Part shown: positions 8,362-40,999 of the stretch, piece after piece | Layout of the letters: each line of letters starts with the position of its first letter | How positions within the stretch are numbered: position 1 is the stretch's first letter | Source of the DNA: Brumimicrobium oceani | GTDB lineage: Bacteria > Bacteroidota > Bacteroidia > Flavobacteriales_D > Crocinitomicaceae | NCBI RefSeq assembly: GCF_003143775.1 | Contig: NZ_QFRJ01000001.1 | Location: forward strand, 62,001 to 126,000 | Length of the DNA stretch: 64,000 bases | Reading direction: 5' to 3' | Notes under the pieces: generated by a model | Databases searched by the model: none | Told to the model about the DNA's origin: nothing | Seen by the model: only the letters and a program-made list of their open reading frames with translations | Translations under genes and position numbers: made by a program

Positions 8362-8784
8362 TTACTGCTTAATTAATTGTTGAACTAGAACTTGTCTTAA
8401 TTGCTTTAGCGTGTTCTGGATTCGCTTGTAGTTCTCTTCTTGCTGCTCTAATTGTAAAAGTGATGAGACAGTCTTCTTAATTGCTTCGGGCTTGTTATAA
8501 GTGATTTTTTGAGCATCCTTAATAATTTTGATGAGGTCATTTTTCCTTATGAAAGGAATCACAGATCCTACTAAAGCAATTTGAAATTGTTTTCCTTGAT
8601 GCAGGGAGTAAACAATCCAGTACAAGCTTTCTTTTTCACTTTCCGAGTTGCAGCTTATCACAAAGCAATTCGGGCAAGGCTTTTTGAGTGGTTTTCCACT
8701 GTTCAATCCTTTATTCAGGATAAAGAAGTGCGGGCCTTTATACACGCCTTTTTGTCGATAGGTAATCATTTTGAAATTAGACAT
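8362..8784 (-). CDS. DUF6943-like protein of Bacteroidota mobile elements
   Basis: Starting at MSNFKMITY (8784) gives 141 residues; the in-frame ATG 24 codons upstream is rejected because the family-like part begins at MSNF. Recognisable phrases are GPHFFILNKGLNSGKPL, CPNCFVI and LYWIVYSLHQGKQF, followed by a helical Gln/Lys-rich C-terminus. I associate this pattern with DUF6943, found near conjugation genes of Bacteroidota integrative elements; function unknown. It borders the structured noncoding region at 8.9-10.9 kb, suggesting both came from one conjugative element (inference). Confidence 0.6.
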   Translation of the reverse strand: MSNFKMITYRQKGVYKGPHFFILNKGLNSGKPLKKPCPNCFVISCNSESEKESLYWIVYSLHQGKQFQIALVGSVIPFIRKNDLIKIIKDAQKITYNKPEAIKKTVSSLLQLEQQEENYKRIQNTLKQLRQVLVQQLIKQ

Positions 8785-8896
8785 AACTACTTGTTTAAAA
8801 ATTAAGTGTTGTCTAAGTCGCTTCGCTCCGCCCTTAATTCCAAAAGAAAAAACCAAAGAAAACGACCAAAAAGGCCGAAAAAAAAGGAAAAAAGAA

Positions 8897-8987
8897 AGCT
8901 CATTCCTCAGGGCTAAAAAGCAGGTTTGTCAAGGTTTTTGACGATAAAAAATTTGACTCCTGCAGTTAAGCCAAAAAATGAATGAGC
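8897..8987. ncRNA. 91-nt nested stem-loop, candidate structured RNA or DNA element
   Basis: Four nested pairings in order: GCTCATTC (8897-8904) with GAATGAGC (8980-8987); GGCT (8910-8913) with AGCC (8969-8972); GCAGG (8919-8923) with CCTGC (8959-8963); GTCAA (8927-8931) with TTGAC (8953-8957). No coding frame crosses it convincingly. The strand of any transcript is unknown. Confidence 0.45.
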
Positions 8988-8995
8988 ACCTTTTG

Positions 8996-9098
8996 ATAAA
9001 AGCAAATGATAGTTAGAATGTAATCACAAAATTATTATTGCAAAACCCGGAGGGCTCGACCTTTACAAAGCTGTGGTTAGCCCTATCTTTGCTTTTAT
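8996..9098. ncRNA. 103-nt stem-loop with 16-bp outer stem
   Basis: The outer stem pairs ATAAAAGCAAA-T-GATAG (8996-9012) with CTATCTTTGCTTTTAT (9083-9098), 16 pairs with a one-base bulge; inside it GGCT (9053-9056) pairs with AGCC (9079-9082). A T-rich stretch follows on the plus strand, so the 3' side could act as a terminator of a plus-strand transcript. It starts 9 bp after the preceding nested stem-loop. Confidence 0.45.
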
Positions 9099-9180
9099 TT
9101 TTTTATTTTATTCTCTCAGAGTTAAGGTAGATGCCTTTTTATATCGAAGCTTAGATTTATATCAAAATGGTAAATGAAAG

Positions 9181-9393
9181 TTCGGAGGTATTACTTTTTT
9201 AAATCAAGTGTGGGTGTTTTTTCGTTGTGATGTGGTTCAACAAGCTACCAATCATATATTACTGTAGAAATATAGATTGGAATGGAGTCGAAAAATAAGC
9301 CCACTCTTGACTTGGATTATGTTTTAATGGAACGTTAAGCTTAAAGTAGCTGCTGACCTTTTGGGAGGCTGCTGCAGTTAATCGGAAATGCTA
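9181..9393. repeat. Structured repeat unit 1 of a diverged array
   Basis: The unit opens with TTCGGAGGTATTA. Outer arms TCAAGTGTGGG (9204-9214) and CCCACTCTTGA (9300-9310) enclose an inner hairpin CCAATC/GATTGG. A second hairpin then pairs GTAGC-T-GCT (9346-9354) with GGC-T-GCTGC (9367-9375), keeping a central T-T mismatch. The unit ends AATGCTA. The same order of elements recurs at 9463, 9804 (partial) and 10067. Confidence 0.65.
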
Positions 9394-9462
9394 GTTGGAA
9401 AGCTGAGCTATTGCTTTGTGATAGGAGGCAAGTAATCAGACGAAGGGAAATCTTCTTTCTGT

Positions 9463-9663
9463 TTCGGAGGTATAAGTTTTTCAAGTGTATGAGTTTTTGA
9501 GTTTGCAGAGATATGATTTTGTAAGAGCTAATCAATGACATAAACTTTAATGCACTTTGCAGAAGGAAACACATACTCTTGGCTTCATTAATTTTAAATT
9601 GGAAGGAAATGCTAAAATACCTGCTGACTTTTTAGGAAGCTGGTAGTTTTTAGAGAAATGTTA
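9463..9663. repeat. Structured repeat unit 2
   Basis: It opens with TTCGGAGGTATAA. The outer arms CAAGTGTATGAG (9482-9493) and CACATACTCTTG (9570-9581) have changed together relative to unit 1. The second hairpin pairs ACC-T-GCT (9619-9625) with AGC-T-GGT (9638-9644), again with the T-T mismatch. It ends AATGTTA. Confidence 0.6.
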
Positions 9664-9803
9664 GTCGGAAGCTAAACTCTTTTTACGAAGCTAATAATTA
9701 TGATTAAAGCATCTTTTTTCTTTGCTAACGCTTAATCGTTTGGAGATAGGCTTTGGTTTGAAATAACTATTAAAATCTCTTTCTTATTAAAACCAACGGC
9801 TGA

Positions 9804-9930
9804 TTCGGAGGTAATGTAGGAGTATTCTTTTTGTGCCAATTAACACTGATAATAAAACAGGAAATACAGCCTTGAGCCTCTACCCATTCAAGAACGAAGG
9901 ATTAATGATTTATTTTTAGATAAAGCATAA
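9804..9930. repeat. Degenerate structured repeat unit 3
   Basis: It opens with TTCGGAGGTAATG at 9804 and keeps a weak arm pairing (AGTATTC with GAAATAC, near 9823 and 9861), but the second hairpin is missing. It runs up to the next TTCGGAGG word at 9931. It is probably a decayed copy. Confidence 0.35.
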
Positions 9931-10066
9931 TTCGGAGGACGCGAGCCGCCTTGCGAGTGGAACGAAGGGGGGAATGGAGAGTGAGAAACAGAGCGATAGC
10001 GGAGTGGAGCGCGGGAATGACCTCTGTGCTTTTTGGCACACGAGGGGCGGTTCCAGTTTTTTGACT
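9931..10066. other. GC-rich noncoding segment inside the array
   Basis: This stretch is clearly richer in G (runs such as GGAACGAAGGGGGG and GAGTGGAGCGCGGG) than the surrounding AT-rich DNA. The only open frames are short and lack recognisable content. It separates the third and fourth repeat units and may be an insertion into unit 3/4. Confidence 0.4.
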
Positions 10067-10276
10067 TCGAAGGGATAATGTTTTACAAGGGTGGGATTGT
10101 TTTTTAATTGTAATGTGTTTCGGTAGACTCAATATTATTTTTTTTGTAGAAACTATTAAAATAGAAAGAGACGAAAAACAATCCCACTCTTGACTTGATA
10201 AATGTAAGATAGAATGTAAATGCTTAAGTGCTTGCTGACCTTTTTCGGGCAGCTTGCACCTCCTAGGGTAATGCTA
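10067..10276. repeat. Structured repeat unit 4
   Basis: It opens with TTCGAAGGGATAA. Outer arms CAAGGGTGGGATTGTTTTT (10086-10104) and AAAAACAATCCCACTCTTG (10174-10192) pair at 18 of 19 positions. The second hairpin pairs GTGC-TT-GCTG (10228-10237) with CAGC-TT-GCAC (10250-10259), with two T-T mismatches in the position of the single one in units 1 and 2. It ends AATGCTA. Confidence 0.65.
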
Positions 10277-10506
10277 AAAAACTGGAATCGCCCTGAAGCC
10301 TGAGAGACTAGCAGGCGAGCCAGACAAGACGCTGCGGTGACACCCCATTAATAGGGAGAGGGAGAGTTTGAGGCACGAGAACTTTTCCTCACCTTTAAGG
10401 GGTTTGGGGTGGCAAAGTAGCAGCAACTGAATGAGGAGACACCCACAGCGAGAAAAATAAGTGGAATGTGGCGCGCGGAGTTTCCGAGCACGACACAATG
10501 GAACGG

Positions 10507-10554
10507 TAAAAACAAGCCCGGAGTGCAACGGAGCTTTGTATAGGCTTGTTTTTA
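10507..10554. terminator. 12-bp perfect hairpin, terminator-like
   Basis: TAAAAACAAGCC (10507-10518) pairs perfectly with GGCTTGTTTTTA (10543-10554), followed by TATTTTTT on the plus strand. The interval 10277-10506 before it is GC-rich and holds no convincing gene. It could end a plus-strand transcript crossing the repeat array, or be part of a transfer-origin region. Confidence 0.5.
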
Positions 10555-10686
10555 TATTTTTTGAGCAGTGAGGTGTTGACGATTGAAGACCTTATTTCCT
10601 GTGCCATACAATCGTCAGTTGGAACCAATTTATGCGAAGCAAGAACCAAAAAATCGTCAGTTGTTGGATAAACCACAAGTTTGGAA

Positions 10687-10727
10687 ACTTGCGGTAGCCT
10701 TTGGAAGACTTGCGGTAGCCTTTGGAA
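10687..10727. repeat. 20-bp tandem direct repeat
   Basis: ACTTGCGGTAGCCTTTGGAA occurs at 10687-10706 and again at 10708-10727, one base apart. A word AATCGTCAGTTG is also repeated just upstream (about 10609 and 10651). No gene is evident; protein-binding or transfer-origin use is possible. Confidence 0.7.
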
Positions 10728-10826
10728 CGGTGGGGTATTTTATCAAAGAGTAATCTTTATTTTGGAAGGATTACTTTACGCCCCGTGGGAAACGGATAGC
10801 TTTTTGAACTGTTTTGCACAGGAACA

Positions 10827-10866
10827 CACTATTACAAAGCGACCTTGGAATGCTCTTGTAATAGTG
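10827..10866. repeat. 11-bp perfect inverted repeat
   Basis: CACTATTACAA (10827-10837) and TTGTAATAGTG (10856-10866) are perfectly complementary with an 18-nt loop. There is no T-run. It lies 59 bp beyond the 3' end of the TIGR04141-like gene and could terminate that gene, or be a nic-adjacent inverted repeat of a decayed conjugative element. Confidence 0.55.
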
Positions 10867-10924
10867 ATGTTTGCGTAGCAAAAACAGGAGAAAACTAGGA
10901 GGTGGAGACGGATTAGGCGCAAAA

Positions 10925-12658
10925 TTAAAAACATTCACTATTATCAATTATTTCAATCGATAAATCATAATACTCGGTTCTCATCTCAGTATAACATTGT
11001 ATTAAAGATATTTTAGCGATGTTAGAAGAGTATTTTGAAATATCCTTAATTATATGCTTGTTTAAAAGATGACCTGTTATTGCCATTACATAGATGATTT
11101 TCTTGGTTTTAAATAGATTAATGAAACCTTCTTCTGTAAGACCATTATTTCTTTCTTTTTTTAGAAGTTGTTTAAAAATAGATTTTAGAAAAGTATTTTC
11201 ATCATCCTTTAGATCGTTCTTTAGTCTTCTTGCTGAGGAGGTAATTTGACTATATAACTCTCTCATTTCGGTCGAAAAACCATATTTAACATGGCACAAG
11301 TATATTTTCTCTTTTTCTATATGAAGCACATCAGCCAGCTCAATTGAGTCAACTATTATCCTATCAAGCACCAGATAATTATCTTTTAAATATCGATCAT
11401 TATAATCAGCTTCATTTTCTCTTTTTTCAAGATCATTCTTCCGCCACTTTTCAGATAGAATAGAGTTATTTAAATTATGATTTGATAAAATTTCTGCAGA
11501 ACGATTATTCATTTCAACTATAAAGATCTCTCTCAATTTATACCATTTAGAATCAAGAAAAATATATGTTCCTATCTTTTTAAGATGAAGCTCAGAATTT
11601 AAATGGTAAAGTAAAGCTGTCCTAAAAATTTTACGACGATTTTTATAGGTAAGTATATATATGTTATAAATTTTGTGCTTAAAAGTGCCAAGATTATTAT
11701 CGTAATTGTTGACTGAAAGAAACTCTAGTATGATTCGCAGTATGTCAGTTTTATTTGATGTAGTACCAATTTTAATATACTTATCATTATCTTTTTTTAA
11801 TTTGATAATGTATTCATCAGCACTATAAAACTCCTCTATTTTACCGGGATAACATATTTCGAAGTTAGATAGCTTTCCTTTTATTATGTTTTTTCTTTCA
11901 TTGAAAAGCAAATTAATTAAACCAGGCTCAAGATTTTTCGCGATAATGTTTTTATCAGTTATTTCTTTATATGAGCTAAAAAAGTCATTTGGATGAATTG
12001 TTTCAATATATTCTAAAGTTTCTATTAATAAGCATAACTCTGAAAATGAAAGCTTCTTATTTAAGTTGAAACCAGTGGAAATATTGAGTATAATGTGTGG
12101 AGACTTTGATGTGATAAAACTATCAAACAGTAAATCAGCCTTTTCGTTAGAAAGTTTTATTTTGAGCTCGGTTGGTATTTTTCCAAACTTAATATAATCC
12201 ATTATTCTATAATTATCTTTAAACTGCTCTTGCATGCCAGCTCTTAATCCTGTAACGCCTCTAGTCTTTATAGAAATGATTTCATCTTTTGCAGGGCTCA
12301 TTATCCTGGAATAGGTATTTAGACCATATGACTGATCTAAATATGGTATTAAATATTTATAAAACGCACCTCCAACAATAGAGAAAATACCAGAGCTAGT
12401 GTTGATTAATAAGACTAAGGACGGCATTTTATACTGGAGTGAAAATTCGTTCACATATTCTGTAGGAAAAAATTTTGACCATTCTGATTCTTTATCATCA
12501 GATTCAATAACTATTAACTTCCCTTCATTCTCATTAAAAACAATATCTTTCTCTTTATATATTTTTCCATTTGTAACCAAATGAGTTTTTATTTCCTCGT
12601 AAACTTTTTTGAAGCTGTATTGAGATTCGATTTTATAGATGGTAGGATTTTGTTTCAT
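10925..12658 (-). CDS. TIGR04141/DUF6119-type sporadically distributed protein
   Basis: The 577-residue protein matches my memory of TIGR04141 (DUF6119): an N-terminal phrase SLVLLINTSSGIFSIVGG, then FYKYLIPYLDQSYGLN and TRGVTGLRAGMQEQF, and a C-terminal phrase IYLCHVKYGFSTEMRELYSQ before SSARRL. This family occurs patchily in bacterial accessory regions and is suspected to be part of conflict systems; no biochemical role is established to my knowledge. It begins 8 bp after the stop of the gene at 12667, so the two are one operon. It is the last gene before the structured noncoding region. Confidence 0.7.
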   Translation of the reverse strand: MKQNPTIYKIESQYSFKKVYEEIKTHLVTNGKIYKEKDIVFNENEGKLIVIESDDKESEWSKFFPTEYVNEFSLQYKMPSLVLLINTSSGIFSIVGGAFYKYLIPYLDQSYGLNTYSRIMSPAKDEIISIKTRGVTGLRAGMQEQFKDNYRIMDYIKFGKIPTELKIKLSNEKADLLFDSFITSKSPHIILNISTGFNLNKKLSFSELCLLIETLEYIETIHPNDFFSSYKEITDKNIIAKNLEPGLINLLFNERKNIIKGKLSNFEICYPGKIEEFYSADEYIIKLKKDNDKYIKIGTTSNKTDILRIILEFLSVNNYDNNLGTFKHKIYNIYILTYKNRRKIFRTALLYHLNSELHLKKIGTYIFLDSKWYKLREIFIVEMNNRSAEILSNHNLNNSILSEKWRKNDLEKRENEADYNDRYLKDNYLVLDRIIVDSIELADVLHIEKEKIYLCHVKYGFSTEMRELYSQITSSARRLKNDLKDDENTFLKSIFKQLLKKERNNGLTEEGFINLFKTKKIIYVMAITGHLLNKHIIKDISKYSSNIAKISLIQCYTEMRTEYYDLSIEIIDNSECF

Positions 12659-12666
12659 ATGATTGG

Positions 12667-13314
12667 TTAATTTATTTTACTAGATAATTTTAAATCCAGA
12701 ACTTCCTTCATTTGAAATATTTCAGAGTATCTTTCTAAACTTCCAATATTGATTTTGATGGGTTCAACTATTTCATTTTCGACATAAAACCTGAATTCCT
12801 TTTGATATTGATACTCTAAAGGCTTTTCAAATACATTTAATTCTTTGCTCTCTTTATTTTTATCATAATAATTTACAAATCCATGATGAAAATTAAACCC
12901 TATTCTTGTTAATTCAGTTTCAACTGCCTCTAAAAAATATTTAATATCCTTTATCATTAAACAATGTGTACCAAACCTTTGGTTCCTTTCATCTAATTCA
13001 AAAATATCAGGTTGAGAAAAACCATGTGAGGAAATACAATAAAGGGAATAAATATTACCTATAACTTCTTGGTAAGACTCAATTAGATGAACTCTTTTAT
13101 AGTTAAATTCTTTGGTAATTCCAGGGATTTTAAACTTTCCAGGAAGTGAATTTACTATGCGGGAAGCGCCTTCATATTTATCTCCTCTTAAAAAATCATC
13201 ATTTGTTTTTCTATGTTGTTCAATTGTGTTGATGAAAACAGTGCCGTTTTCATATAGATCACGAATATTCTTTTCACTACCAAATTTCAAAAACAAAGCT
13301 ATTTCATGTGTCAT
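12667..13314 (-). CDS. Uncharacterised 215-aa protein, partner of the TIGR04141-type gene
   Basis: The protein begins with LFLKFGSEKNIRDLYENG followed by FINTIEQHRK and RGDKYEG, and ends with a phrase QYQKEFRFYVENEIVEP. This layout (short residency phrase near the N-terminus, a conserved E-F-R near the C-terminus) recalls DUF2971-like proteins, but no family can be assigned firmly. It lies directly upstream of the TIGR04141-type gene with an 8-bp gap, so the pair is probably translationally linked and may form one conflict module (inference). Confidence 0.6.
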   Translation of the reverse strand: MTHEIALFLKFGSEKNIRDLYENGTVFINTIEQHRKTNDDFLRGDKYEGASRIVNSLPGKFKIPGITKEFNYKRVHLIESYQEVIGNIYSLYCISSHGFSQPDIFELDERNQRFGTHCLMIKDIKYFLEAVETELTRIGFNFHHGFVNYYDKNKESKELNVFEKPLEYQYQKEFRFYVENEIVEPIKINIGSLERYSEIFQMKEVLDLKLSSKIN

Positions 13315-13338
13315 AGTTTACAAATGTTTAATTAATTC

Positions 13339-13470
13339 CTACATCCCTCTTGTCAATTCCTTAGCCTTATCAAGTGTATAAGCCCCATCTACTGGTTTTT
13401 GGTCGAATACCATGAAGTAGGCGAAGTTATGGCCAGCTCTCCTAGCTCTAGTTGTGCTTCGGTAAATTTC
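13339..13470 (-). pseudogene. Coding remnant between two defence genes
   Basis: On the minus strand a stop-free stretch reads EIYRSTTRARRAGHNFAYF, then MVFDQKPVDGAYTLDKAKEL, and ends RGM-stop at 13339-13341. It looks like natural protein sequence rather than noise, yet has no start codon and is cut off by a stop next to the end of the preceding gene. Reading frame +1 offers MKFTEAQLELGEL, reminiscent of restriction-subunit N-termini, before it stops. I take this as the scar of a deleted gene. The family is not recognised. Confidence 0.35.
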
Positions 13471-13472
13471 AT

Positions 13473-15014
13473 TTATAGTTTTTGTTTTTTAAGCAACCAA
13501 ACTCCTTCTTTTCGACCACCTTCGCGCTCTATGAAGTTTTCTTCTCTTAATTTTTTAATGTAGGTTTGAACAGAACGCTCTGTAACTCCTAAAATTGATC
13601 CTATTTCTTCTGCTGTAATTTCAGGATAAATTATTATGAGCTCTAAGGTTAGTATTTGATTAGGAAGTTTCTTTCCTGAAACTTTCCCGAAGCTTTCCCG
13701 AAGCTTTCCCGAAGTTATCCCGAAATCCTCCATAAAATAAGTCGTAATTGACTCAAAATTCTCATGTAGAAGATTAATATTTTCTTTGGTTGATGCCTTT
13801 CGACGTTCCGAAATTGTTCCAAAATCATATTGTAATTCTGTTAATACAAGTTTTTGTTTTGCTTTAAAGTCAACTACCTGTTCTCCTAATTGGGTATTAC
13901 CAAGTTGGGTATTAGCGAGTTGATGAGGTTTTTCTAGAATAGCTTTCGGGAAAGTCATTCTTAAAAAGTTTTCAGAAAATTTAAAACATTCCCTTCCATA
14001 GTATTCTAAAATTCTAGGTACACCAGAACCCAATTGCTCAACTAAGCCCAGGTCTTTATAAATACGCATTAGTTCTTTATTTCTCGGAACTGAAAACCCT
14101 TCAAAGAATTCGTCTTTACTTAATCCATTAGGCAAACCGCCTGTAGAAGTGATTTCTATTCTGTCATCGAAAATCTCAAATTTTGGTGGTACTTCAGTTG
14201 TGTAATCATTGTGTACGAATGCATTTAATATCGCTTCTCGCAATGCAATGGATGACCATGGACGTTTGTCTATTCGTTCCGTTGAAGTAATGCTTGTATC
14301 GCTTCTGTTTTCAAGTTCTATTTTGTCTAAAACTTGTTTTGTCGCTTTGATTAAAGACTCATACCCGAAATCAGGATTCTCTGCTAAATCTACTCTTGTT
14401 AAACCATTGTATTTTGCCAACTTAATTGAAGTACCATTTTCATCTGCCATTAAATAAGCGACATAATTGTATTCACCTTTTTCAGTTAACAGTTCAAGGT
14501 TCTTCGCGAAATTTTTATTGAGTGTGATGCCTTTTCCTTCATAATAGATTTTCAGTTGCTCGAAAGTGAGGTCTTGCCGGCTCGATCTAATTTTACCGAT
14601 TGATGTTTTGGTTCTTTTGGCAAACAATTCATCAATCAATTTTTGAGGCATGGGATCCGCTGCAGTTCCATTACGGATGTAAGCCCCCTTTTCAGACATG
14701 CCGTATTTGCGTTTGTAATAGGGCTTTTCTGAACCACTAGCTACAGTAATCTTGATAATGTCTTTGTCGTCTTTTTCCTCCGAACTTATATCAAACAATC
14801 CCATGCAGGAAGGAATGATATTGGTTTTTAGACGATCCTTGATTTTGAGCATATCGCCATCTATATCCTCAACGCCTACAACTGTTCCCGTTTTATCAAT
14901 TCCAATATAAATAAAACCACCTTCATTGTAGTTGAGGAAAGCGATTACTTCTTTCTCCAGGTCAATCTCCTTGGTGAGCTTCTCTTTGAATTCTATGCGG
15001 TTTGTTTCGGGCAT
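13473..15014 (-). CDS. AlbA_2/Schlafen-type ATP-binding transcriptional regulator
   Basis: 513 residues. The N-terminal 120 residues form a divergent AAA_4/AlbA_2 (Schlafen-like) domain (RIEFKEKLTKEIDLEKEVIAF, GGFIYIGID). Residues about 250-350 carry a GHKL-like ATP-binding C-domain (ALREAILNAFVHNDY, DRIEITSTGGLPNG, GLVEQLGSGVPRI). A winged helix sits at the C-terminus (ITAEEIGSILGVTERSVQTY). A low-complexity linker includes NTQLGNTQLGEQ and tandem CCCGAA-rich DNA at 13679-13725. Such proteins are often regulators inside defence islands. It diverges from the HNH gene at 15296, leaving a 281-bp shared upstream region. Confidence 0.8.
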   Translation of the reverse strand: MPETNRIEFKEKLTKEIDLEKEVIAFLNYNEGGFIYIGIDKTGTVVGVEDIDGDMLKIKDRLKTNIIPSCMGLFDISSEEKDDKDIIKITVASGSEKPYYKRKYGMSEKGAYIRNGTAADPMPQKLIDELFAKRTKTSIGKIRSSRQDLTFEQLKIYYEGKGITLNKNFAKNLELLTEKGEYNYVAYLMADENGTSIKLAKYNGLTRVDLAENPDFGYESLIKATKQVLDKIELENRSDTSITSTERIDKRPWSSIALREAILNAFVHNDYTTEVPPKFEIFDDRIEITSTGGLPNGLSKDEFFEGFSVPRNKELMRIYKDLGLVEQLGSGVPRILEYYGRECFKFSENFLRMTFPKAILEKPHQLANTQLGNTQLGEQVVDFKAKQKLVLTELQYDFGTISERRKASTKENINLLHENFESITTYFMEDFGITSGKLRESFGKVSGKKLPNQILTLELIIIYPEITAEEIGSILGVTERSVQTYIKKLREENFIEREGGRKEGVWLLKKQKL

Positions 15015-15295
15015 GGTGTTTTTGTTGTTGCTAATATCGTGATTATATTTTAATTATGTTTGAGTCTCGTTTTTGATGTAATAAATCCTTAATTAATCAA
15101 AAAAGTCTTATTTAGATTTTGGTAAGATAGGTTGATTTAATTAAATAAACTTAAAGGTGAAATGAGTTTTTTGAAAATAGATAAAGGATAAGAAAATATC
15201 ATGGTAGAGTATTAGCATTTGGATCTACATTATTGATTGAAATTAGTCTTATAGGCCTAAAAACACTATTATTGATTAGAAAGTAAATGTAAATA

Positions 15296-16501
15296 ATGGG
15301 AACGAGTAAAAAAAAATGTATTGTTTGTAATCAAATTAAAAATGAAACTGAATTTAATCGGGAGCATGTTATTCCTGAAACTATCGGAGGGGTTTATGAA
15401 ATTAAATCAGTTTGTATATTATGTAATGAAAGATTTGGTAAAAAGATAGACACACCTCTGGTAAATCATAAGGTTATTTTGATCAACAGACATGAGTATA
15501 AACTAAAAAGAGGTGGTTACCGAGGTATACCTAATCCTTTTAAAGGTATTTATGTCCAAGATAATGGCGAAAAATATACAGTTAATTTTAATCAAGAAGG
15601 AGAGGCTACTGCTGACATACTACCTAAGTTTGAAGATAATGTTCTGGAAAATAATAAGAGGGTTGGAAAATTAACAATTGCTAAAAAAGATATGGATAAA
15701 ATTCCTAGAATTATAAATCGGGAGTTAATTAATCGTAAATTGTACATGCTCGACAAGATTATGCCTGAACCGATTGAAATTCAGGGTGAAGAACTTGTTT
15801 TAATTGAAAGAACGAATAACAATCCCTTAATATTTGGTGCTTTAAAAATTGCTTATGAATTCTGCCATGAAGTTGTCCCGAATTATGTAAATGATGAGTT
15901 ATCGGAGAAATACAGGAAAGTACTACTTAAACCAATTGACGAAGATAATATTGGTAAATTTTTAATAAAAGATGAAGTTCTTATTAATGCGTTCTTAAAT
16001 AGGGTTTTAAAAATTGATACAATTGAAAAACATCATCATTTAATATTCCTTACTCCTGTTAAGAATAGAGGGACATTTTGCTTTATAAAGCTATTTCAAA
16101 TGACTGTTCTTATCAAAATGTCAAAAAAGGAAATGTTAGAGAATGAGGTTATACTATTTAATGATGTAATTCAGGGTAAATGTGGAATGCAGATTCCTGT
16201 TAATATTAAGTCTTTTGATGTCAAATTAAAATTGGCCGATGATAAATCAAAACCTAAAGGTGCGTTAACTAATGACAATGGTCAAACCCCAGTATTTAAT
16301 GAGAAAGGGGAGATATTGTATAATCATTTAGATAAATTGATAGGAGCAGAATATATAGTTCCAAAACGAAATGAGTTCATTTCCAAAAGCATGAAAATTA
16401 GACAAGAATTTTCAAATAATAATTTTTATTTAAAAGGAACAGATGAAACGGGTCTTTTGAAAATTGAAGCAATAGAGTTTAAGGTGAGACTTTTAATTTA
16501 A
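15296..16501 (+). CDS. HNH-type nuclease-like protein
   Basis: The first 60 residues contain a zinc-ribbon HNH signature: CIVC at residues 9-12, then REHVIPETIGG (the H-V-I-P core) and CILCNERFG. The remaining 340 residues have no recognised motif but include a possible regulatory region. HNH domains cut or nick DNA. It is transcribed toward the AbiGi-like gene, and the two ends converge with a 76-bp gap. It may be a stand-alone restriction nuclease (inference). Confidence 0.65.
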   Translation: MGTSKKKCIVCNQIKNETEFNREHVIPETIGGVYEIKSVCILCNERFGKKIDTPLVNHKVILINRHEYKLKRGGYRGIPNPFKGIYVQDNGEKYTVNFNQEGEATADILPKFEDNVLENNKRVGKLTIAKKDMDKIPRIINRELINRKLYMLDKIMPEPIEIQGEELVLIERTNNNPLIFGALKIAYEFCHEVVPNYVNDELSEKYRKVLLKPIDEDNIGKFLIKDEVLINAFLNRVLKIDTIEKHHHLIFLTPVKNRGTFCFIKLFQMTVLIKMSKKEMLENEVILFNDVIQGKCGMQIPVNIKSFDVKLKLADDKSKPKGALTNDNGQTPVFNEKGEILYNHLDKLIGAEYIVPKRNEFISKSMKIRQEFSNNNFYLKGTDETGLLKIEAIEFKVRLLI

Positions 16502-16577
16502 AGTGATCTCGTTAATATTTTAGGAAAGTTCTTTTTTTAGTATAAGGACCTTTTTAAGTAATTTGAGTATCTTTAAA

Positions 16578-17810
16578 TTAATCCACGTAAGTTTTAGCAT
16601 AAAATGAAGTGCCTAATTTTTTGTTTATAAATACACATACCTCATTTGCGACGAATTCATGATAACTTACACTTTGCGAACCATCCTTTTCTCCAATAAC
16701 ATCTAAAGAATACCCATCACCATAACAATATGCTAATCCAAGTTCAATCATTTTCCTTAAGTATTTATCACGGGGATTATAGCAATGAATATTTGCCTCT
16801 CCGCACGCATCAGCATAATCCCCGTCTTTCATCTTGGTTAAATGCGTTGTTTTGTGGAATTCTAAGGAAGCCTTCTTTGTAATCGTCGTTTTGGCTTCTT
16901 CAATCGTTTCCATAAGCAAACTTAGTTCCTGAGGAGTTAGTGATACAAAATCAACTTTATAATAGGCCTCTGGTGGTAAATCTTCTATTCGATGTGGGTA
17001 TGGAGAAGTATTAGATATATTCTGTAATAGAAGTAGTGAAATATTTTTAGGATCAAAACTAATACCATATTCATTTCCTTTTGAATCTAATTGAGCCAAC
17101 ACAATATCATGTAATTCATCTGCTTCACTTTGATTGCTTACTATCAAAAGTATTTCACTACAATGACTATCTTCCGAAAAAACATTTAGCGCAGGTACTT
17201 CCTCCTGATAAGTTGAGTGATGTTCTCCTATAATGTAATCGGAATCTACTTTTGGCTTTTTTAAGCGCCACTCTCTTTCATGGCTCCAATCTATTTTTTT
17301 ATCAGAAAGATCAAATGTCACTAAGCGATATTGCTCATTTAAAGGAAGAATAGATGAATGTAAAGTTCTATTAAAATTGTTGTTAGTGGTGTACCTAAAA
17401 TCTTGATCTTTCGACAAACCATAAATTACAGGACGAGCACCATATTTGTACATTTCTTTTTTTCTAATCGCTATACCATAGGTACTGTTTGAGTCTGAAC
17501 TTCTTTCTTTTGCATATTCAATAAAGGACTTTAAGGGCATCTCGGTAAAACAAATAACAGGAGAACCTCCGAACAATGTTGTTCTTCCATTTCGAAGGGA
17601 ATAATTATATCTTATACCACATTCTCTAACAATATTTTTTAAGGACTCAAAAGCTGTTAGCGAACTATGACCAAAGGGTAGTTGGTTGGAGTAGTCTAAA
17701 TAATACTCTCCTTCTTCTGATTCATCTTCAATGTATATTTCAGTTTGATTTTTGCTTGAAATATCTTTGGTGAAATGGATAAGCCAATCTGTTATATCTT
17801 TTCTTTTCAT
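16578..17810 (-). CDS. AbiGi/DUF2971-like protein, third gene of a Gabija-like operon
   Basis: 410 residues. N-terminal phrase DWLIHFTKD, a central GSPVICFTEMPLKSFIEYAK, and HEREWRLKKP near residue 200 are typical of AbiGi-like and DUF2971-like abortive-infection proteins; the C-terminal 150 residues are not recognised. Its start codon is one base after the stop of the helicase gene upstream, so it is the last gene of the same operon. The close coupling suggests it works with, or is kept in check by, the nuclease-helicase pair (inference). It has no visible catalytic triad I would trust. Confidence 0.5.
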   Translation of the reverse strand: MKRKDITDWLIHFTKDISSKNQTEIYIEDESEEGEYYLDYSNQLPFGHSSLTAFESLKNIVRECGIRYNYSLRNGRTTLFGGSPVICFTEMPLKSFIEYAKERSSDSNSTYGIAIRKKEMYKYGARPVIYGLSKDQDFRYTTNNNFNRTLHSSILPLNEQYRLVTFDLSDKKIDWSHEREWRLKKPKVDSDYIIGEHHSTYQEEVPALNVFSEDSHCSEILLIVSNQSEADELHDIVLAQLDSKGNEYGISFDPKNISLLLLQNISNTSPYPHRIEDLPPEAYYKVDFVSLTPQELSLLMETIEEAKTTITKKASLEFHKTTHLTKMKDGDYADACGEANIHCYNPRDKYLRKMIELGLAYCYGDGYSLDVIGEKDGSQSVSYHEFVANEVCVFINKKLGTSFYAKTYVD

Positions 17811-17811
17811 C

Positions 17812-19734
17812 TCAAATATTTACGACATTCTCGACACCAAACCACTCTTTAGCTTTTGAGATAACTTCTTGGCTTGGGTTGTTAAAAAATACTGCAAGAT
17901 TTTCTTTTGCTCTGGTACAACATACATAAAATATTTTTTGCGATCTATCCAAAACAGTAGGGGAACCCGCTTCTAAAAACAGATTTTCAAAGTTATAATT
18001 ATTCCACTTACCATTATCTAGGATAACAAGAACATTATCAAATTCTGCGCCTTTAGTTTTGTGCTGTGTAGAGAATGGTGTTTTACCTTCTAAGTATTCA
18101 AACAATTTTTGAAATTCGCTGAATTTTATATTTTTTACTCGATTGTATAAATAAACGTTTTTTTCTTGAAAGTCTTTCAACTTATCATCGATTAAACATA
18201 TTCCCTTTATATTAGCGTCATTAATAACCTCGTCTATTGTTTTTTCTCCAACATCGATTAGGTGTTCAATATTCTCTTTTAAAACTCTTTTACTTTTAAT
18301 ACTGGTTATCTGAAATCGAAAGTCCGTAACTTTTAAAAATTCATTGTACTTTTTGTTTTGATATAAAGAAATATTTTGTTGGATCTTAAATAAGTGCTTA
18401 ATTAGACTGTCTCTTTTTGCTCCTTTTTTACTTTTATCTTCCTCATCTTGTTTTTTATCATCCAAAAGTTGATCTTTAGTAAAATATACTTTAGATAACT
18501 CTAAATAGTTTAAAGTTTTAGCATAATTATAAAGTTCAGTGTTGTTAGCGATAAAATCCTTCATTCCTTTTGTCGGACTAACGGCTTTTAGGTCTCTTCC
18601 TGTTTTGCCATTTTGAAGAATCTCAATTACCTCACCAAAGGTGCTTTCTGAAAAGTCTAGATCAATATCATGTTTTTTAATATAATCTCTAATTCTATCT
18701 CTAAATTTCAGAACAAGATCTTTATCATAAACGCTCATTAAGTTCTCAAAACCTGCTTTATCAGCGATTAAATTATGTGTTAAGTTAAGCTCTTTAGTCT
18801 CTTTTGCCTCCTTAAAATCCCAATCATGATTTTTAACAAGGTATTCTCTAACACTTTCGACATTATCAGTATTAGAGTGTAAAAACAAGACAGTCCCTTG
18901 TTTAACAACACCACTATCCATATTGGGTGCTTTTAAATCCGAAGAAGGGATTTGATTAATGCCGTCTGTTCTAAGCTTATTGGCTAAATCAATCACTTTT
19001 TGAGGATTTCTTCTATTTTGTTCTTTTTTTATTTCATCAATAAGGTCATCTTCTTTGTATGCAGCCAAACTTCCTATCCCTTCAGGATAAATTGCTTGCA
19101 TCGCATCACCAAAAAATCCAATAATATTCTTTTTAGAACTTTTTTTAAAATGATTTAGAAATATCTCTACTACATATTTATTAGTATCTTGATATTCGTC
19201 AATAAAAATGAATTTATATTTATCCTTTACTATACTGCTTAATTTAGGATGGGAAGAAAATAGATAGTTCGCTAGAATCAAAAGTTCATCGTGAGAAATT
19301 ATTCCATCGCGCATTCTAAGAAATTCCTTATATTGAATACCATCATCTAAATTATCAAAATAATTTTCAGGAACAGGGTTTATATCTTTGATTGAAATTT
19401 TAGAAACTTCAATATCGTTTGCTAATGACACCAAAGCTTTTTTCAACTCTTTTTGAAAGTGTTTAATATTATCCCACAAAAAGTCGTGAATCGTAGATAC
19501 ATTCAAATTCTTATGGTTTACTCTTTCTTCTATTTCCTTAACAGCTGCATTAGTATATGTCATACAGGCTACTTGAACAGACGGATTTTCTTCTATTACT
19601 TGTCGAATAACACTTACTAAAGAATAAGTTTTTCCACTTCCTGCCCCACCACTTAATAGAAAGTTTTTCTCATCATCAATTAAGTTGAAAATATCTTGAA
19701 CTTCAGTCTCTAATTTTAATCTTTCTTTAACCAT
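17812..19734 (-). CDS. UvrD/PcrA-like helicase, Gabija GajB-like
   Basis: A superfamily 1 helicase of 640 residues with all main motifs: Walker A GGAGSGKT (residues 29-36), motif II FIFIDEYQDTN, motif III GDAMQAIY, an arginine motif EQNRRNP, motif V TQHKTKGAEFDNV and motif VI YVCCTRAKENL. The ATG at 19734 is preferred over the upstream in-frame start at 19770 because MVKERLKLE leads straight into the helicase fold. It overlaps the 3' end of the OLD nuclease gene by 19 bp. Nuclease plus UvrD-like helicase in this order is the Gabija anti-phage arrangement; this helicase is longer than the approximately 500-residue GajB I recall. Confidence 0.8.
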   Translation of the reverse strand: MVKERLKLETEVQDIFNLIDDEKNFLLSGGAGSGKTYSLVSVIRQVIEENPSVQVACMTYTNAAVKEIEERVNHKNLNVSTIHDFLWDNIKHFQKELKKALVSLANDIEVSKISIKDINPVPENYFDNLDDGIQYKEFLRMRDGIISHDELLILANYLFSSHPKLSSIVKDKYKFIFIDEYQDTNKYVVEIFLNHFKKSSKKNIIGFFGDAMQAIYPEGIGSLAAYKEDDLIDEIKKEQNRRNPQKVIDLANKLRTDGINQIPSSDLKAPNMDSGVVKQGTVLFLHSNTDNVESVREYLVKNHDWDFKEAKETKELNLTHNLIADKAGFENLMSVYDKDLVLKFRDRIRDYIKKHDIDLDFSESTFGEVIEILQNGKTGRDLKAVSPTKGMKDFIANNTELYNYAKTLNYLELSKVYFTKDQLLDDKKQDEEDKSKKGAKRDSLIKHLFKIQQNISLYQNKKYNEFLKVTDFRFQITSIKSKRVLKENIEHLIDVGEKTIDEVINDANIKGICLIDDKLKDFQEKNVYLYNRVKNIKFSEFQKLFEYLEGKTPFSTQHKTKGAEFDNVLVILDNGKWNNYNFENLFLEAGSPTVLDRSQKIFYVCCTRAKENLAVFFNNPSQEVISKAKEWFGVENVVNI

Positions 19735-21794
19735 AATAAACCGTTTTTTATGTAAGATGGAATATTCCAATTAGAGAAGTTTTCATCACTATGATATAAA
19801 ATATCTAAGGCAAAATGTGTTTTCTTCTTTACACAACTTTCAGCTAATTGATAGGCATCATTAGTATCAATGTCAAATAATTTGGGATTTTTCAATCCTT
19901 GAAAGCTACTTTTGTTTCCCTTAATAAAGTCAAGGTTAATGTGTATGAATGAATCTTCAAAGGTTCTTGCATGGTAAGAATCTTCTTCCTGTTGATAAGA
20001 AAGACTTACGATAGCTCCCCCTTGAAGAGAAATCGTTCTATCATCTTCCTGAAAATCTTTAATCTGATCCCATGAAGAGTTTTTTAAGAAGTGTTTAATC
20101 GCAGAATTACTAGTATCTGTTCCCTCCCCAACCGAACAAGTACTCCATACATCTTTTCCGTCTTTATAAGTTTTCATTTTAGGATCGATATCCGTAATTA
20201 TTAAGGTTTTTATTCCCAAAAACTCAATAAAACTTTGAAATATTTGAGAATAAGCTCCAACTTCAATTATTGAAATATTCTGGGACAACAAAGGTAGAAA
20301 AGCATCTTCTTCACCTGTATCTTTCAAGCGTTGATCTTCTTCAATATCGATCTTTCTCATAAAGGTTGGTATCAATATTCTTTCAGTATCACCTTCAATC
20401 ATTATAACTTTATCTGCAAAGAAAATTTCGGCCCTACTTATTGTTAAGTATTGTTTTAAAAATTGATATTGATTTGGAACATTTTCATATTTTTTTATCA
20501 GGTCTTTCAAATTTTTCGTATCAACATTATTCTTACTTATAGCTTTTAGATATTTAATATCTTCGAAATCACTGTCTGCTACTATGTGTGATGAATGTGA
20601 TGTAATAACATATTGAAGCCTTCTATTTATATTATCATCTCTTTTTATTCCTTCACCGAGTAGTTTTTTTATGTTTTTAATGAATACGTACTGCATTTGA
20701 GGATGGGTGTGGGCTTCGGGTTCCTCAATAAACAGTAGGTTTATATCAGCAGGCTTTTTATTTTCATCTCTTTTGAATTCCTGTACCAGAATTTCAATTT
20801 CAAAAATCATGCTGATTAAGTTCATATAACCTAAACCATTATAATGTTCAGGTAATTGATTGTCATCATGAGTGTAAACAACAGTTGTATTTCCTTCAAG
20901 TAACTCCCGATGTTGTAAGGTTGAAATTATTGCTATGTCAGTATCATTAAGCTTAATTCCTCCAAAGTCTTGTACTTTTTTTATTACTTCTTTAAACTGT
21001 TCTTTATAAATATCACTTAACGCATCATCAGTTTCAGAAAGCTGATCTTTAAACTTTTCTGTTGCATCTGATTTTTCAGTATTGTCTTCTTGCTTTTTAT
21101 AAAGAACAGAAGTTTGTTTTGAAAGCGTACTTTCTTTGTCTTTATTTGTTACATCACGTCTTGCACCAATGTACTTAAAATTGACAATTTCTTTTAAACT
21201 AATTCCTTCGCTTTCAAGATTAATACAATTGTTTTCGTTCACTCTTTTAGTTTCAACATCATATTCAAAAGAATACTTCAATATATTAAAGTAGTTTCCA
21301 ATTTCTCTTTTAATAAAGTCTTTTAAGTCTTTAACTTTATACTTCTCGTTTGCATCTTTTTTGACTTTTTCATTGATCACAAAAGTCGAATAATCATCTC
21401 TTAATTTTATTAGTTTATCAAAACCTAAAACATAATTAAAGCCAAGCACTACTATGTTATTATCTGGATCTAGGTCCATTAAAACTCTACTTATATTCGA
21501 AAGGTCGTCAAGCTCATCATACTCAATAAATAATTTAAGCTTGATTCCTATAGGAAGAAATTCTTCAGTTATGGTGGGTGATTTTATTTGATCTTCTAAT
21601 TCTTTTTTGAAGTCAATATTAAAGTCATCGTACGAGAACTTACTTTTTTCATTTAAAAACTTATCTAGTACTGAAAGAATTGAAGTTTTACCAGTATTGT
21701 TCTTTCCTATCACAAGCGTAAGCTCATCTTCTAAATCCATCGAGAAGTTTTTAAGAAGTCTAAAGTTCTCGATTTCTATTCTAAATATTTTCAT
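19716..21794 (-). CDS. OLD-family ATP-dependent nuclease, Gabija GajA-like
   Basis: 692 residues: an ABC-type ATPase (Walker A GKNNTGKTS at residues 30-38; Walker B LLFIEEPEAHTHPQ; switch VITSHSSHIV) followed by a TOPRIM nuclease domain (VIMIEGDTERILIP and LIITDIDPK, giving the acidic metal-binding residues). Together with the overlapping UvrD-like helicase it forms a Gabija-like pair; class 2 OLD nucleases are known to pair with such helicases and to cut phage DNA when nucleotide levels drop. It is longer than the approximately 580-residue type GajA. The type ISP gene ends 63 bp upstream on the same strand. Confidence 0.8.
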   Translation of the reverse strand: MKIFRIEIENFRLLKNFSMDLEDELTLVIGKNNTGKTSILSVLDKFLNEKSKFSYDDFNIDFKKELEDQIKSPTITEEFLPIGIKLKLFIEYDELDDLSNISRVLMDLDPDNNIVVLGFNYVLGFDKLIKLRDDYSTFVINEKVKKDANEKYKVKDLKDFIKREIGNYFNILKYSFEYDVETKRVNENNCINLESEGISLKEIVNFKYIGARRDVTNKDKESTLSKQTSVLYKKQEDNTEKSDATEKFKDQLSETDDALSDIYKEQFKEVIKKVQDFGGIKLNDTDIAIISTLQHRELLEGNTTVVYTHDDNQLPEHYNGLGYMNLISMIFEIEILVQEFKRDENKKPADINLLFIEEPEAHTHPQMQYVFIKNIKKLLGEGIKRDDNINRRLQYVITSHSSHIVADSDFEDIKYLKAISKNNVDTKNLKDLIKKYENVPNQYQFLKQYLTISRAEIFFADKVIMIEGDTERILIPTFMRKIDIEEDQRLKDTGEEDAFLPLLSQNISIIEVGAYSQIFQSFIEFLGIKTLIITDIDPKMKTYKDGKDVWSTCSVGEGTDTSNSAIKHFLKNSSWDQIKDFQEDDRTISLQGGAIVSLSYQQEEDSYHARTFEDSFIHINLDFIKGNKSSFQGLKNPKLFDIDTNDAYQLAESCVKKKTHFALDILYHSDENFSNWNIPSYIKNGLLWLKKD

Positions 21795-21856
21795 AATTTA
21801 TGGTAGGTTTGATCTTAATTATCGATTATATCTATTTTTTACTATTTCCCTTATCT

Positions 21857-24800
21857 CTACTCAATTTCAACCTTATCAATCTCCTTCATCAACCTATCTG
21901 TCTCCGTCAACGCCACAATAATCTTTTGATAATGAAGTATGTCCTCAAACTCTAACGTTCTATCCTTACGGTCTTTTAACCATTTCTGAGCGGGTTGATA
22001 ACCTCCGATATAAAACTCCCAGGCCACCAATGGCACATTATCAAAATATTGATCATCATTTATCCAAACGCGACCTGTTGAATCATCAATGGCCTCATAC
22101 CCGATTTCCGTTTTAGTAAGCTTGCGAGTTACTTTGTTATCTCCACCTATTGGATAGCTTGTAATATAATCTTCTACTTTATCGGATTCTAATAAATGAA
22201 TTTGACGTATTTCACCACCTAGTTTAACAAGTTGCCAAAAAGTTGCTGCGTCTTTTGGATAGGGTACTCTTGGAAAATCTATTTTTAAGAATTCTTTGTA
22301 TTTCTCTCTGTAAGTAGGAGAATGTAAAACAGCATAGATATAGTCTAAAATATCTATTGGGGCGAAAGTGTTTTCTTTTGTTTCTTTTTCGTTGGTAAAT
22401 GTTAAACCTAAATTTAAAGCAATTTGATTTACAATTTCTTGGTTTAGATTAGGTCTTCTATCAGTTTCCTCTTCAATAGTTTGTTGGCCATTTTTAGTAG
22501 GATAATAATAAAGAGGAAAAACATAACCGCCACCTCTGTAAAAGACATTATAATCAACTAATGAATTAGTGCAAAATATCAGATTCCATTGCATATGCCC
22601 TATAACCTGTCCTTGTCTACCAATAATTAAACCTTCGTTTTTGTGCCCATCAAAATGAAACATTGCTTTTTGAGCTGAACGACTAATAATTTCGGGGTCA
22701 TAATATGTCCATCTAGAATCAAACGGGCGGTAAACACTTTGTTTAATATGGTCAGTATTAAACTCCTTATCTCTAATAACAGAGGTGATTTTGTAACTAC
22801 CAGAGTCTTTTATTTTATACTCATCAATAAAATTTTGGTCAAAATCTCCTGTTAAAAGTGAATTAAACCTATTCTTTAAATTTCTTCTGATTGAATCATA
22901 AAAAAGATTATCTCTATCCGTTTTAATACCTGAATTTGAAGCATTAAATAGGGTATTTATTTTGAACCCTTTATTATGGCTTTCTTGTTCTGAAAAATCT
23001 TTTTCAACGAAGAAAAAATAAGGATCTACAGGATTGAGTTCTTTCCAAGAAATATTTTCTAAATTATGGTCATTAAGAAATTTATATTTTTCTTTTCTTG
23101 TTCCATACTGTTCATTATAAAACACAGAATTATTTTGTTTTTTTGTTTTTGAACCTGTTTTAATGAAAATATTTATACTAACACCTTGTTGAATATCAAA
23201 AACATTTTCATCATTATCAGCGATTAAATTTACTTCCTTAAGTTTTGCAAAACCGTGCAAATCAAGTATGTAGATTTTGTCAAAACTCTCCATTAAGTTT
23301 TTTCTCATTTGACGATGGGTAATCCCATCAATAAAACTATTATTTGAGATGTATGCTAAAACCCCACTTCCATTTTTGTCAATAAAGTGTTGACCATAAC
23401 GAATAAACTTAATGTAATCATCATCTAAGTTTATTTTTCTTTCGTTTAAATTTTTCTTATAATCTTTTATTAAATTTTGTATCCAATTGCCTTTGTTGGT
23501 GCTGCTAACAGCATAAGGAGGATTTCCAATCACACACATCACTGGTGTGTCACGTTTAATATGATTGGCTTCATTGGCTTCGCTACTTAACCAATTGGCA
23601 AACAAAGTTCCTGTATCTGGATGATACTCCTCTAAACTATTGGTTAGATAAACTTTTGTTCTTTGATCTCTTGTTGGTTTAAATCCTGTTTCTTTTAATA
23701 ATAAATCCAATTGCAAATGCGCCATAGCATAACTCGCCATCAATAACTCAAAGCCATTCAAACGAGGGAGTAAATCATTTTCAACATAACTACTCCAAAT
23801 CCCTTCTTGGCCTTTAAACTTCTTATTCACGTGTTTAATCACTTCCGCTAAGAACGTTCCTGTTCCTGTAGCAGGATCCAGAATTTGAACTTTGTGAACT
23901 TCTTTTTCTACTTGTTTATATCCAGTTGTAGAACGTTTGTCAGGGGTTTGCGTATCTATATTTATTTTTGTCTTGGAAGTGTCCGCTAGACCTTGTGGTA
24001 AATCAAATTCTGTTTTTAGAATATCATCGACTGCACGAACAATAAAGTTTACAACAGGGGCAGGAGTGTACCAAACACCTCTCGCTTTTCTTAAAGCTGG
24101 ATCGTACTCTGCCAAGAAAGTTTCATAGAAGTGAATAATTGGGTCTTCCATTTGGGTAGATTTCCCATAATTCTTAAGAATTTCTTCAACGTTACACGCC
24201 AAGAATATTTCGGTAAGATTTTCTACAATCCATTTTATCCTATCGTCAATATCAGGTCCTGCAATATACCCAAACAACTTTCTTAAAAAAGGATTTGATT
24301 TAGGAATTAATTCAGCAGCTTCTTGTCTGCTAAATGTATTTATAGTTGGATCATGTAAGCGGGCTGCAAACATTCCATAAGCAATTGTCTGCGCATAAAC
24401 ATCAGCAAATCCTTTGGGCGTTATATCGTGAATTAAAATCTCCTTGAAAGCTTGTTTTTGTTCTCGAAGCGTACTGTTTTGATGATTTTCTTCATCGCTT
24501 GTTAAAGACTTTTCTATAATGTCAGATAAAAGACGTGCTTTCCCTGCCATCATCTCTGCTAACTTTTTAGGACTTTTAATATTTTGTCCCACATGTACAC
24601 AGAAATCTTTAAGAAGATTGGTAAACCTTTCAAAATTTTCAGGTAAACCGACTATTCGCTGATCAGTAATTTCGGCAATAGCAATTTTAGTAATAAACTC
24701 ACCGTCTCGGTATAAGTGAAAATCAAGGTAATCTGTAAATATCAGGTTGTTTAATGATGCTTTGTAGCGGTCAAATTGTTCTTTGTTTACAGACTTCTTT

Positions 24801-36536: not shown

Positions 36537-36821
36537 CTACACATTTTGCTTGTTATCATCAATGATGTTAAGGATGTCCTGTTTATCATAGAAAATTACT
36601 CCTCCAACTTTTGAGAAAGGGAGTGTACCATTCACGCGCATATTTTGTAAAGTTCCTGGAGAGATGCCCAGCATGCGTTGAACCTGATGAGATTTTAGAA
36701 GAACGATATCATTTAACTGATTGTGATTTTTTAAATGGTCCTTTAGCATGGTTCCTACTGATTCAACAAAAAACTCTTTTAATTCTTGCAGGTCTTCCTG
36801 CGTTACAATTGAAATATTCAT
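36537..36821 (-). CDS. Excisionase-type helix-turn-helix protein
   Basis: 94 residues. A MerR-like/excisionase HTH_17 domain occupies residues about 40-90: SHQVQRMLGISPGTLQNMR, then GTLPFSKVGGVIFYDKQDI. Such proteins steer integrase toward excision or regulate element genes. The gene ends 2 bp before the replication gene start and heads a minus-strand operon (HTH, replication protein, DnaC-like, amidase). An inverted repeat (36882-36917) lies 61 bp upstream and is a plausible autoregulatory site. Confidence 0.75.
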   Translation of the reverse strand: MNISIVTQEDLQELKEFFVESVGTMLKDHLKNHNQLNDIVLLKSHQVQRMLGISPGTLQNMRVNGTLPFSKVGGVIFYDKQDILNIIDDNKQNV

Positions 36822-40609: not shown

Positions 40610-40611
40610 AG

Positions 40612-40684
40612 TGATCCCGCTGGGGTTCGAACCCAGGACCCTTACATTAAAAGTGTAATGCTCTACCAGCTGAGCTACGGAATC
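40612..40684 (-). tRNA. tRNA-Lys(UUU), copy 1
   Basis: The minus strand reads GATTCCGTAGCTCAGCTGG through to GGGATC plus discriminator A; 73 nt with no encoded CCA. The anticodon stem TTACA/TGTAA closes the loop CTTTTAA, so the anticodon is TTT (Lys). Acceptor pairing GATTCCG/CGGGATC has one G-T pair. The integrase gene starts on the 3' side of this tRNA. Confidence 0.95.
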
Positions 40685-40920: not shown

Positions 40921-40926
40921 ATTTGG

Positions 40927-40999
40927 TGATCCCGCTGGGGTTCGAACCCAGGACCCTTACATTAAAAGTGTAATGCTCTACCAGCTGAGCTACGGAATC
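40927..40999 (-). tRNA. tRNA-Lys(UUU), copy 2
   Basis: Identical over all 73 nt to copy 1, with anticodon TTT in the loop CTTTTAA. The two tRNAs are separated by 242 bp and each has its own terminator. Confidence 0.95.

Follow-up and report, generated by a model that had tools for sequence, protein, structure and literature searches.

In this study, the window, the whole stretch of 64,000 nucleotides of Brumimicrobium oceani that was analysed, was found to carry what seems to be an integrative island spanning about 2.8–40.6 kb. Its left part holds P249 (3351–4100, plus strand), a conserved 249-aa gene of such islands that was recognized by its linkage to the RNA described below, and P88 (4136–4381, plus strand), a small conserved gene with hydrophobic stretches. 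The DUF6943 gene follows (8362–8856, minus strand; Pfam PF22105, E 2.9e-48); the methionine of the conserved protein lies near 8784, and a longer frame runs from 8856. Beyond a region without genes lie the cargo genes (10925–25039, minus strand), which start with a TIGR04141 protein (10925–12658) and include helicase-like and methylase-like proteins (labels assigned by eye); according to the gene list, all but one of them point at the RNA, and an HNH-like gene (15296–16501) is on the plus strand. A replication-initiator-like gene (35539–36534, minus strand; phmmer E 7.1e-51) and an excisionase-like helix-turn-helix gene (36537–36821, minus strand; phmmer E 1.1e-21) were identified from their homologues on the Marivirga plasmid p1, which match phrog_1032 (E 2.7e-6) in the first case and HTH_17 (E 2.8e-9) and phrog_66 (E 8.4e-6) in the second. 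A tyrosine integrase gene (39057–40382, minus strand), whose product matches that of locus L026 (phmmer E 3.4e-121), lies at the right end.

The integrase gene adjoins a tRNA-Lys gene (40611–40684, minus strand; ARAGORN), which is the probable integration site; tRNA-Lys (TTT) is present twice at this end, at 40611–40684 and 40924–40999, about 240 bp apart. The left boundary is tentatively placed near 2.79 kb from a hairpin similar to that of the right end, and no direct repeat of at least 10 bases joins the two ends of the island. In L254 (18640–19060) and L256 (12790–13215), the integrase lies beside a tRNA-Gln gene, with a hairpin resembling an intrinsic terminator between them; the hairpin of L256 is identical to that of the window and the hairpin of L254 is different, and in both loci attachment may take place at this hairpin. 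No tRNA was found beside the integrase in L253, L234, L231, L026, L250 and L262. Long direct repeats indicate tandem islands in genomes G001 (period 25.3 kb) and G060.

A reading made from the sequence alone had described 8880–10866 as free of any convincing gene and rich in inverted repeats. The list of open reading frames of the window bears out the former, and the latter were recovered, for example at 10086–10104/10174–10192, 10045–10062/10276–10293, and 9857–9873/10586–10602. Four like units had also been proposed. Those at 9181, 9463, and 10066 are homologous (nhmmer E 3e-61, 2.3e-49, and 4.6e-59, which are self-match scores, since the profile was built from these three units themselves), and their homology is independently supported because the profile also finds units in other genomes, so that homologues exist outside the strain’s own genome. 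The fourth proposed unit heads no unit at all: the motif at 9803 had no match to the unit profile in a scan of the window. A trailing AATGCTA, taken as a fixed feature of the units, is not constant among those compared. Conserved non-coding elements, found by blastn across loci and given without a strand, flank the RNA described below: element A (8859–8952) adjoins the DUF6943 gene, element B (9031–9110) is a hairpin followed by a T-rich run (by eye), and element C (10760–10922) has been moved away from the RNA in L028, where a gene is inserted between the two. Hairpins are visible in these flanking elements (8859–9110 and 10760–10922).

Alignment with relatives changed the view of the array. 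Positions 9857–10602 of the plus strand form one conserved block, a large structured RNA domain of about 745 nt that is closed by helix P1 (9858–9864/10595–10601), as judged from alignment A5 and its pair counts, and the unit at 10066–10275 is internal to it, inside helix P5. The repeat array, which the sequence-only reading had treated as the main feature, is thus an amplification of one domain of this RNA. By profile scan and unit alignment, the free-standing units U1 (9181–9400, plus strand) and U2 (9463–9670, plus strand) are tandem copies of this internal domain. Such free-standing copies lie upstream of the RNA twice in the window, three times in L023, and twice each in L024, L025, and L060; L059 has one copy and a fragment, and broken copies precede a whole one in L028. 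The extra upstream copies were seen in genomes of the window’s genus, Brumimicrobium, and the unit profile scan found none in L026, L027, L063, and L064.

The domain is built from a series of helices, all on the plus strand. Hairpin P4 (10021–10045; 78.8% of cells paired, two-sided changes in 3 of 9 pairs) precedes the U domain (10046–10292), which is closed by P5 (10046–10062/10276–10292; 81.5% paired, two-sided changes in 11 of 17 pairs). Inside it, inverted repeats together with alignments A5 and A6 define P6, the outer stem of the unit (10086–10099/10179–10192, within 10086–10192), and the two alignments define P7 (10229–10258), the second hairpin with its constant T-T mismatch. The inner extension of P6 is poorly kept (56% paired in A5), as is one pair of P7 (29% paired in A5). 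The most conserved core (10298–10440) follows, with P8 (10298–10302/10312–10316), P9 (10331–10335/10420–10424), and P10 (10341–10347/10405–10411); it was delimited by pair counts in alignment A2 and by R1, a covariance model of the core whose E-values are rough. Hairpin P12 (10509–10518/10543–10552, within 10509–10552) is 94.8% paired, with two-sided changes in 6 of 10 pairs. A candidate pseudoknot of TTCGAAGG with the P7 loop, considered by eye, was dropped because L026–L028 do not keep the pairing. The inner part of the U domain is missing in L063, L064, and L066 and strongly altered in L067, L068, and L073. The U domain behaves as a module that may be lost, kept single, or tandemly amplified with its structure preserved.

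The sequence-only reading had argued from compensatory changes for selection on structure, and the relatives support this and extend it to 21 loci. In A5, 83 pairs in 11 helices are paired in 86.5% of 1617 cells (39.5–49.8% in slid controls); these percentages are favoured by the way the helices were selected, visually, with the window and the alignment as guides. Both sides have changed in 38 pairs and 170 cells, compared with 28.1 and 66.1 after shuffling, and none of 500 shuffles reached as high; the shuffle controls ignore the kinship of the loci, so the counts are strong but not phylogeny-corrected. Further pair types showed no excess (73 vs. 73.1 shuffled). P9 and P10 are paired in 100% and 98% of cells, respectively, and the closing helix P1 in 90%, with double changes in 4 of its 7 pairs; two items among the 11 helices are poor, the 56% and 29% given above. 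A5 comprises 21 of 23 ranges, leaving out L025 (near L060) and L072, and the ranges do not include L062 (broken by an insertion) or L074 and L076 (truncated where their contigs end). The core gave a similar picture in A2, which comprises 20 of 24 loci without L071 and L072 (long inserts), L028, and L025: 97.6% of cells are paired, and 6 of the 17 pairs, with 19 cells in all, have changed on both sides (1.8 and 3.5 shuffled), with no excess of further pair types (8 vs. 7.3).

The units tell the same story as paralogs. A6 aligns 16 U domains from seven loci, nine free-standing and seven internal, and 85.9% of the cells of its 24 pairs are paired (32–56% in slid controls). The compensatory change first noticed between units holds here, with two-sided changes in 10 pairs (5.9 shuffled; 1 of 500 shuffles as high) and 33 cells (12.6 shuffled; 0 of 500); further pair types are less striking (20 vs. 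16.7; 12 of 500). The T-T mismatch said to mark the second hairpin is unpaired in all 16 U domains. The structure of the region is almost certainly under selection. The region could otherwise be the debris of a decaying mobile element or of hairpins, kept by common descent and without present function, and partial or broken copies of the RNA do occur in L028, L061, and L062; with two-sided changes in both the RNA (A5) and its paralogous units (A6), we regard this as highly improbable.

The pairs also bear on the active strand. Read on the plus strand, G.T cells outnumber A.C cells by 19 to 1 in the 16 units of A6, and in A5 by 56 to 25 over the 83 pairs and 27 to 15 over 69 robust pairs. This excess favours the plus strand as the putative active one; it would arise for single-stranded DNA as well as for RNA. 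The fold might act as single-stranded DNA, for example as a single-strand origin, an oriT, or a structured recombination site for replication, excision, or transfer. Carriers do have integrase, excisionase-like, and replication-initiator-like genes, and the conserved DNA starts sharply, by eye, at the terminal inverted repeat. A circular form also exists, namely p1, a 25,320-bp plasmid of Marivirga sp. BKB1-2. This circle carries genes for an integrase, an excisionase-like protein, and an initiator-like protein, together with P249 and a divergent RNA (E 6.1e-6 with R1; E 1.2e-5 for the 5' half), and the integrase, P249, and RNA follow one another as they would if an island had closed into a circle. 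The P249 frame of p1 looks interrupted (126-aa frame). The plasmid suggests that elements of this kind can take a circular form. However, a fold of about 745 nt, with many separate helices and conserved loops, is far larger than the origins known to us; the amplification of units and the loss of whole domains suit a modular RNA; and no relaxase was recognized by eye beside the RNA. A single-stranded DNA is thus unlikely, and the molecule probably acts as RNA. The sequence-only reading had left it undecided whether the region belongs to a conjugative element; no conjugation genes (relaxase, type IV secretion) were recognized by eye in the gene lists, which as yet gives no support to a conjugative element.

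The RNA recurs in the family Crocinitomicaceae and is sparser beyond it. Among 240 genomes of the family, DNA searches found matches to unit U1 in 6 (E <= 1e-3) and to 9855–10620 in 36, from 13 of 24 genera (E <= 1e-4), and R1 matched 61. A draw from the order gave R1 matches in 62 of 399 genomes (57 in the family and 5 outside), and a draw from the class in 23 of 395 (3 in the family and 20 outside, most of the latter weak). The largest number of RNA copies in one genome was six (G060). A pattern scan for the core in named genomes returned 86 stretches; among the 80 listed, 49 also match the RNA profile, all under Bacteroidota names, and 31 do not, all under names of other phyla. Among the named carriers are Brumimicrobium salinarum, B. 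glaciale, B. aurantiacum, and Fluviicola MAGs, as well as MAGs labelled Chryseobacterium and Chitinophaga. In Sphingobacterium, 13 loci align to the first 55–65 nt or so of the core profile and no further, and all 13 match R1 (E 9.8e-9 to 1.7e-6). Neither P249 nor DUF6943 was found in the DNA examined at these loci, and their neighbours are mostly on the plus strand; whether the short match reflects kinship to the RNA is uncertain. B. oceani itself has another RNA-bearing element, at C12:34166 and 42186 (L222, 7148–7449 and 15168–15469), in two copies that are nearly identical (99.8%) over at least 5 kb. It carries two Xer-like recombinases in tandem and, as judged from its likeness to the equally arranged L027, a large primase-like protein.

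The RNA is linked to P249. When all genomes with a P249 match or an R1 match were taken from the 240 of the family, 51 had both, 10 had the RNA alone, 20 had P249 alone, and 159 had neither (RNA in 61, P249 in 71; Fisher p 1.3e-25). Of 97 RNA sites in the family, counted from strong P249 rows (E <= 6.5e-59) and the family rows of the order draw, with others dropped, 60 lie on a contig with a strong P249 match no more than 30 kb away, on the same strand in 60 of 60 and upstream in 59 of 60. Such a match is missing at the other 37 sites, many of whose contigs are short. An association with DUF6943, which the sequence-only reading had thought worth checking, is real: among the 38 loci whose upstream DNA spans 7 kb or more, DUF6943 is present in 21, P249 in 28, and either in 35. 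P249 is thus the better marker of RNA loci (28/38 vs. 21/38). Neither protein was found within the DNA examined at L068 and at both L222 copies. At L223 (7920–13140), a 2.1-kb inverted repeat (86%) holds two head-to-head P249/DUF6943 sets.

P249 had no match in Pfam, NCBIfam, or PHROG, and its predicted model is of low confidence (mean pLDDT 62), with no fold match at E <= 0.001. The P88 homologue of L060 had no PHROG or Pfam match and sub-threshold NCBIfam matches. The predicted structure of DUF6943 is good (86.5), and its best fold matches are HsdS recognition domains (E 4e-3 to 1.4e-2). This weak predicted likeness to the recognition domains of type I restriction specificity proteins is a lead, and because of it DUF6943 may bind nucleic acid; a literature search found no publication on DUF6943. 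Both marker proteins have phage kin, because five IMG/VR contigs (L257–L261) carry DUF6943 relatives, with head genes identified in L258 and L259, and in phage contig L259 a relative of P249 (35% identity, E 2e-40) lies about 600 bp from the DUF6943 relative, on the other strand. A search from this P249 relative found no other contig, a pattern search for P249 in viral contigs yielded none that was confirmed, and in the phage records searched neither the P249 protein nor DUF6943 had a match; among plasmids P249 matched one, Marivirga p1. The RNA itself was not found by R1 in the examined DNA of L257–L261, and two IMG/VR contigs with the core pattern matched neither the RNA profile nor R1. The DNA of the window region had no blastn match in 50,697 phage records, a search insensitive to divergent copies, and no match among plasmids.

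The orientation of the cargo genes raises another explanation, in which the RNA would regulate in cis or as antisense, with a long structured leader or 3' region governing the neighbour operons that converge on it. Downstream DNA of 4 kb or more is available at 58 loci, and at 50 of them the nearest gene of 150 aa or more on that side is oriented towards the RNA. The 13 Sphingobacterium loci were excluded from the neighbour-gene counts (38 upstream and 58 downstream loci), and one neighbour-gene comparison left out 13 loci duplicating others. However, the genes neighbouring the RNA differ from locus to locus, conservation among distant loci, by eye, begins and ends at P1, and no expression platform or terminator was identified; cis-regulation is quite unlikely. 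No shared promoter was seen, because the sequence just upstream of P1 is, by eye, unconserved among distant loci. A trans-acting structural RNA of the element is the simplest reading, because the RNA is conserved independently of the cargo, has its own closing helix, and keeps a fixed order with P249 and DUF6943. The RNA marks integrative islands in which a tyrosine integrase, P249, DUF6943, and the RNA are followed by cargo genes pointing at the RNA. On balance, we lean towards the view that the plus strand of 9857–10602 encodes a structured non-coding RNA of about 745 nt, of a new family carried on integrative islands.

In such a scheme, the plus strand of 9857–10602 would be transcribed and would work as a folded RNA in trans. 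The RNA may be a scaffold that binds proteins of the element or the host, or copies of itself, as proposed for GOLLD and ROOL; if it is an RNA, we give a scaffold role in trans roughly even chances, by analogy with these RNAs. Oligomerisation or caging as in GOLLD and ROOL would likewise be an analogy. The U domain could serve as a modular platform for binding, the tandem copies in Brumimicrobium increasing its valency, and DUF6943 and P249 may belong to the same machine as the RNA. A bolder proposal, which we consider rather unlikely, is that a self-assembling giant RNA forms with P249 and DUF6943 a particle or RNP for excision, maintenance, or transfer of the island, with a docking domain that amplifies in tandem. 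A family in culturable environmental Bacteroidota that is tied to two marker proteins, on an island with a circular relative, offers candidate protein partners, and its natural variants, with the U domain lost, single, or amplified, allow direct tests of how giant ornate RNAs function.

The sequence-only reading knew of no described family with this layout, and the region has no match in Rfam 15. At gathering scores, tRNA alone matched in the window and in eight divergent loci, and a permissive search of 8800–10950 gave 8 matches, all far below gathering scores. To our knowledge, only a handful of bacterial RNAs of such size and intricacy are known. Among the matches listed for large RNAs, Bacteroidetes candidate RNAs, islands, Brumimicrobium, and Crocinitomicaceae, this RNA is described in no title or abstract opening. 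The islands share folded repeats, rich cargo, and a tyrosine recombinase with integron attC arrays. Nevertheless, they are not integron arrays, because the integrase of L026 is not of the IntI type (TIGR02249, 47.6 bits against a cut-off of 265) and the units of the window are contiguous and gene-free instead of one site per cassette. OLE is also a large, well conserved structured RNA; it occurs, according to PMC12054373, mostly in Gram-positive extremophiles and anaerobes of Bacillota, whereas the RNA here, from other hosts, has no Rfam match. PMC12286853 describes ROOL as an RNA of complex fold (659 nt for one solved) on mobile DNA, and our RNA is alike in size class, fold complexity, and location; it differs in its hosts, the lack of an Rfam match, and its link to P249/DUF6943. 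In the same paper, GOLLD is a very large multi-domain non-coding RNA on mobile DNA, often near tRNAs, with a conserved 3' and a variable 5' part, and the functions of GOLLD, ROOL, and OLE are called poorly understood. Our RNA resembles GOLLD, as so described, in its great size, its several domains, its place on mobile DNA, and its conserved 3' and variable 5' parts, and a tRNA gene lies beside the integrase in the window, L254, and L256. A large covarying multi-domain fold like those of GOLLD and ROOL is also seen here (A5). It differs in that GOLLD resides on phages and prophages, whereas this RNA resides on integrative islands of Bacteroidota and has tandem copies of one domain. By the Rfam models it is a member of neither family, and at most it would work like them. 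In our view it represents a large “ornate” RNA family that is new with respect to the Rfam models, in a comparison that lies outside the thousands of motifs of PMC8040213, and that is comparable in kind to GOLLD and ROOL.
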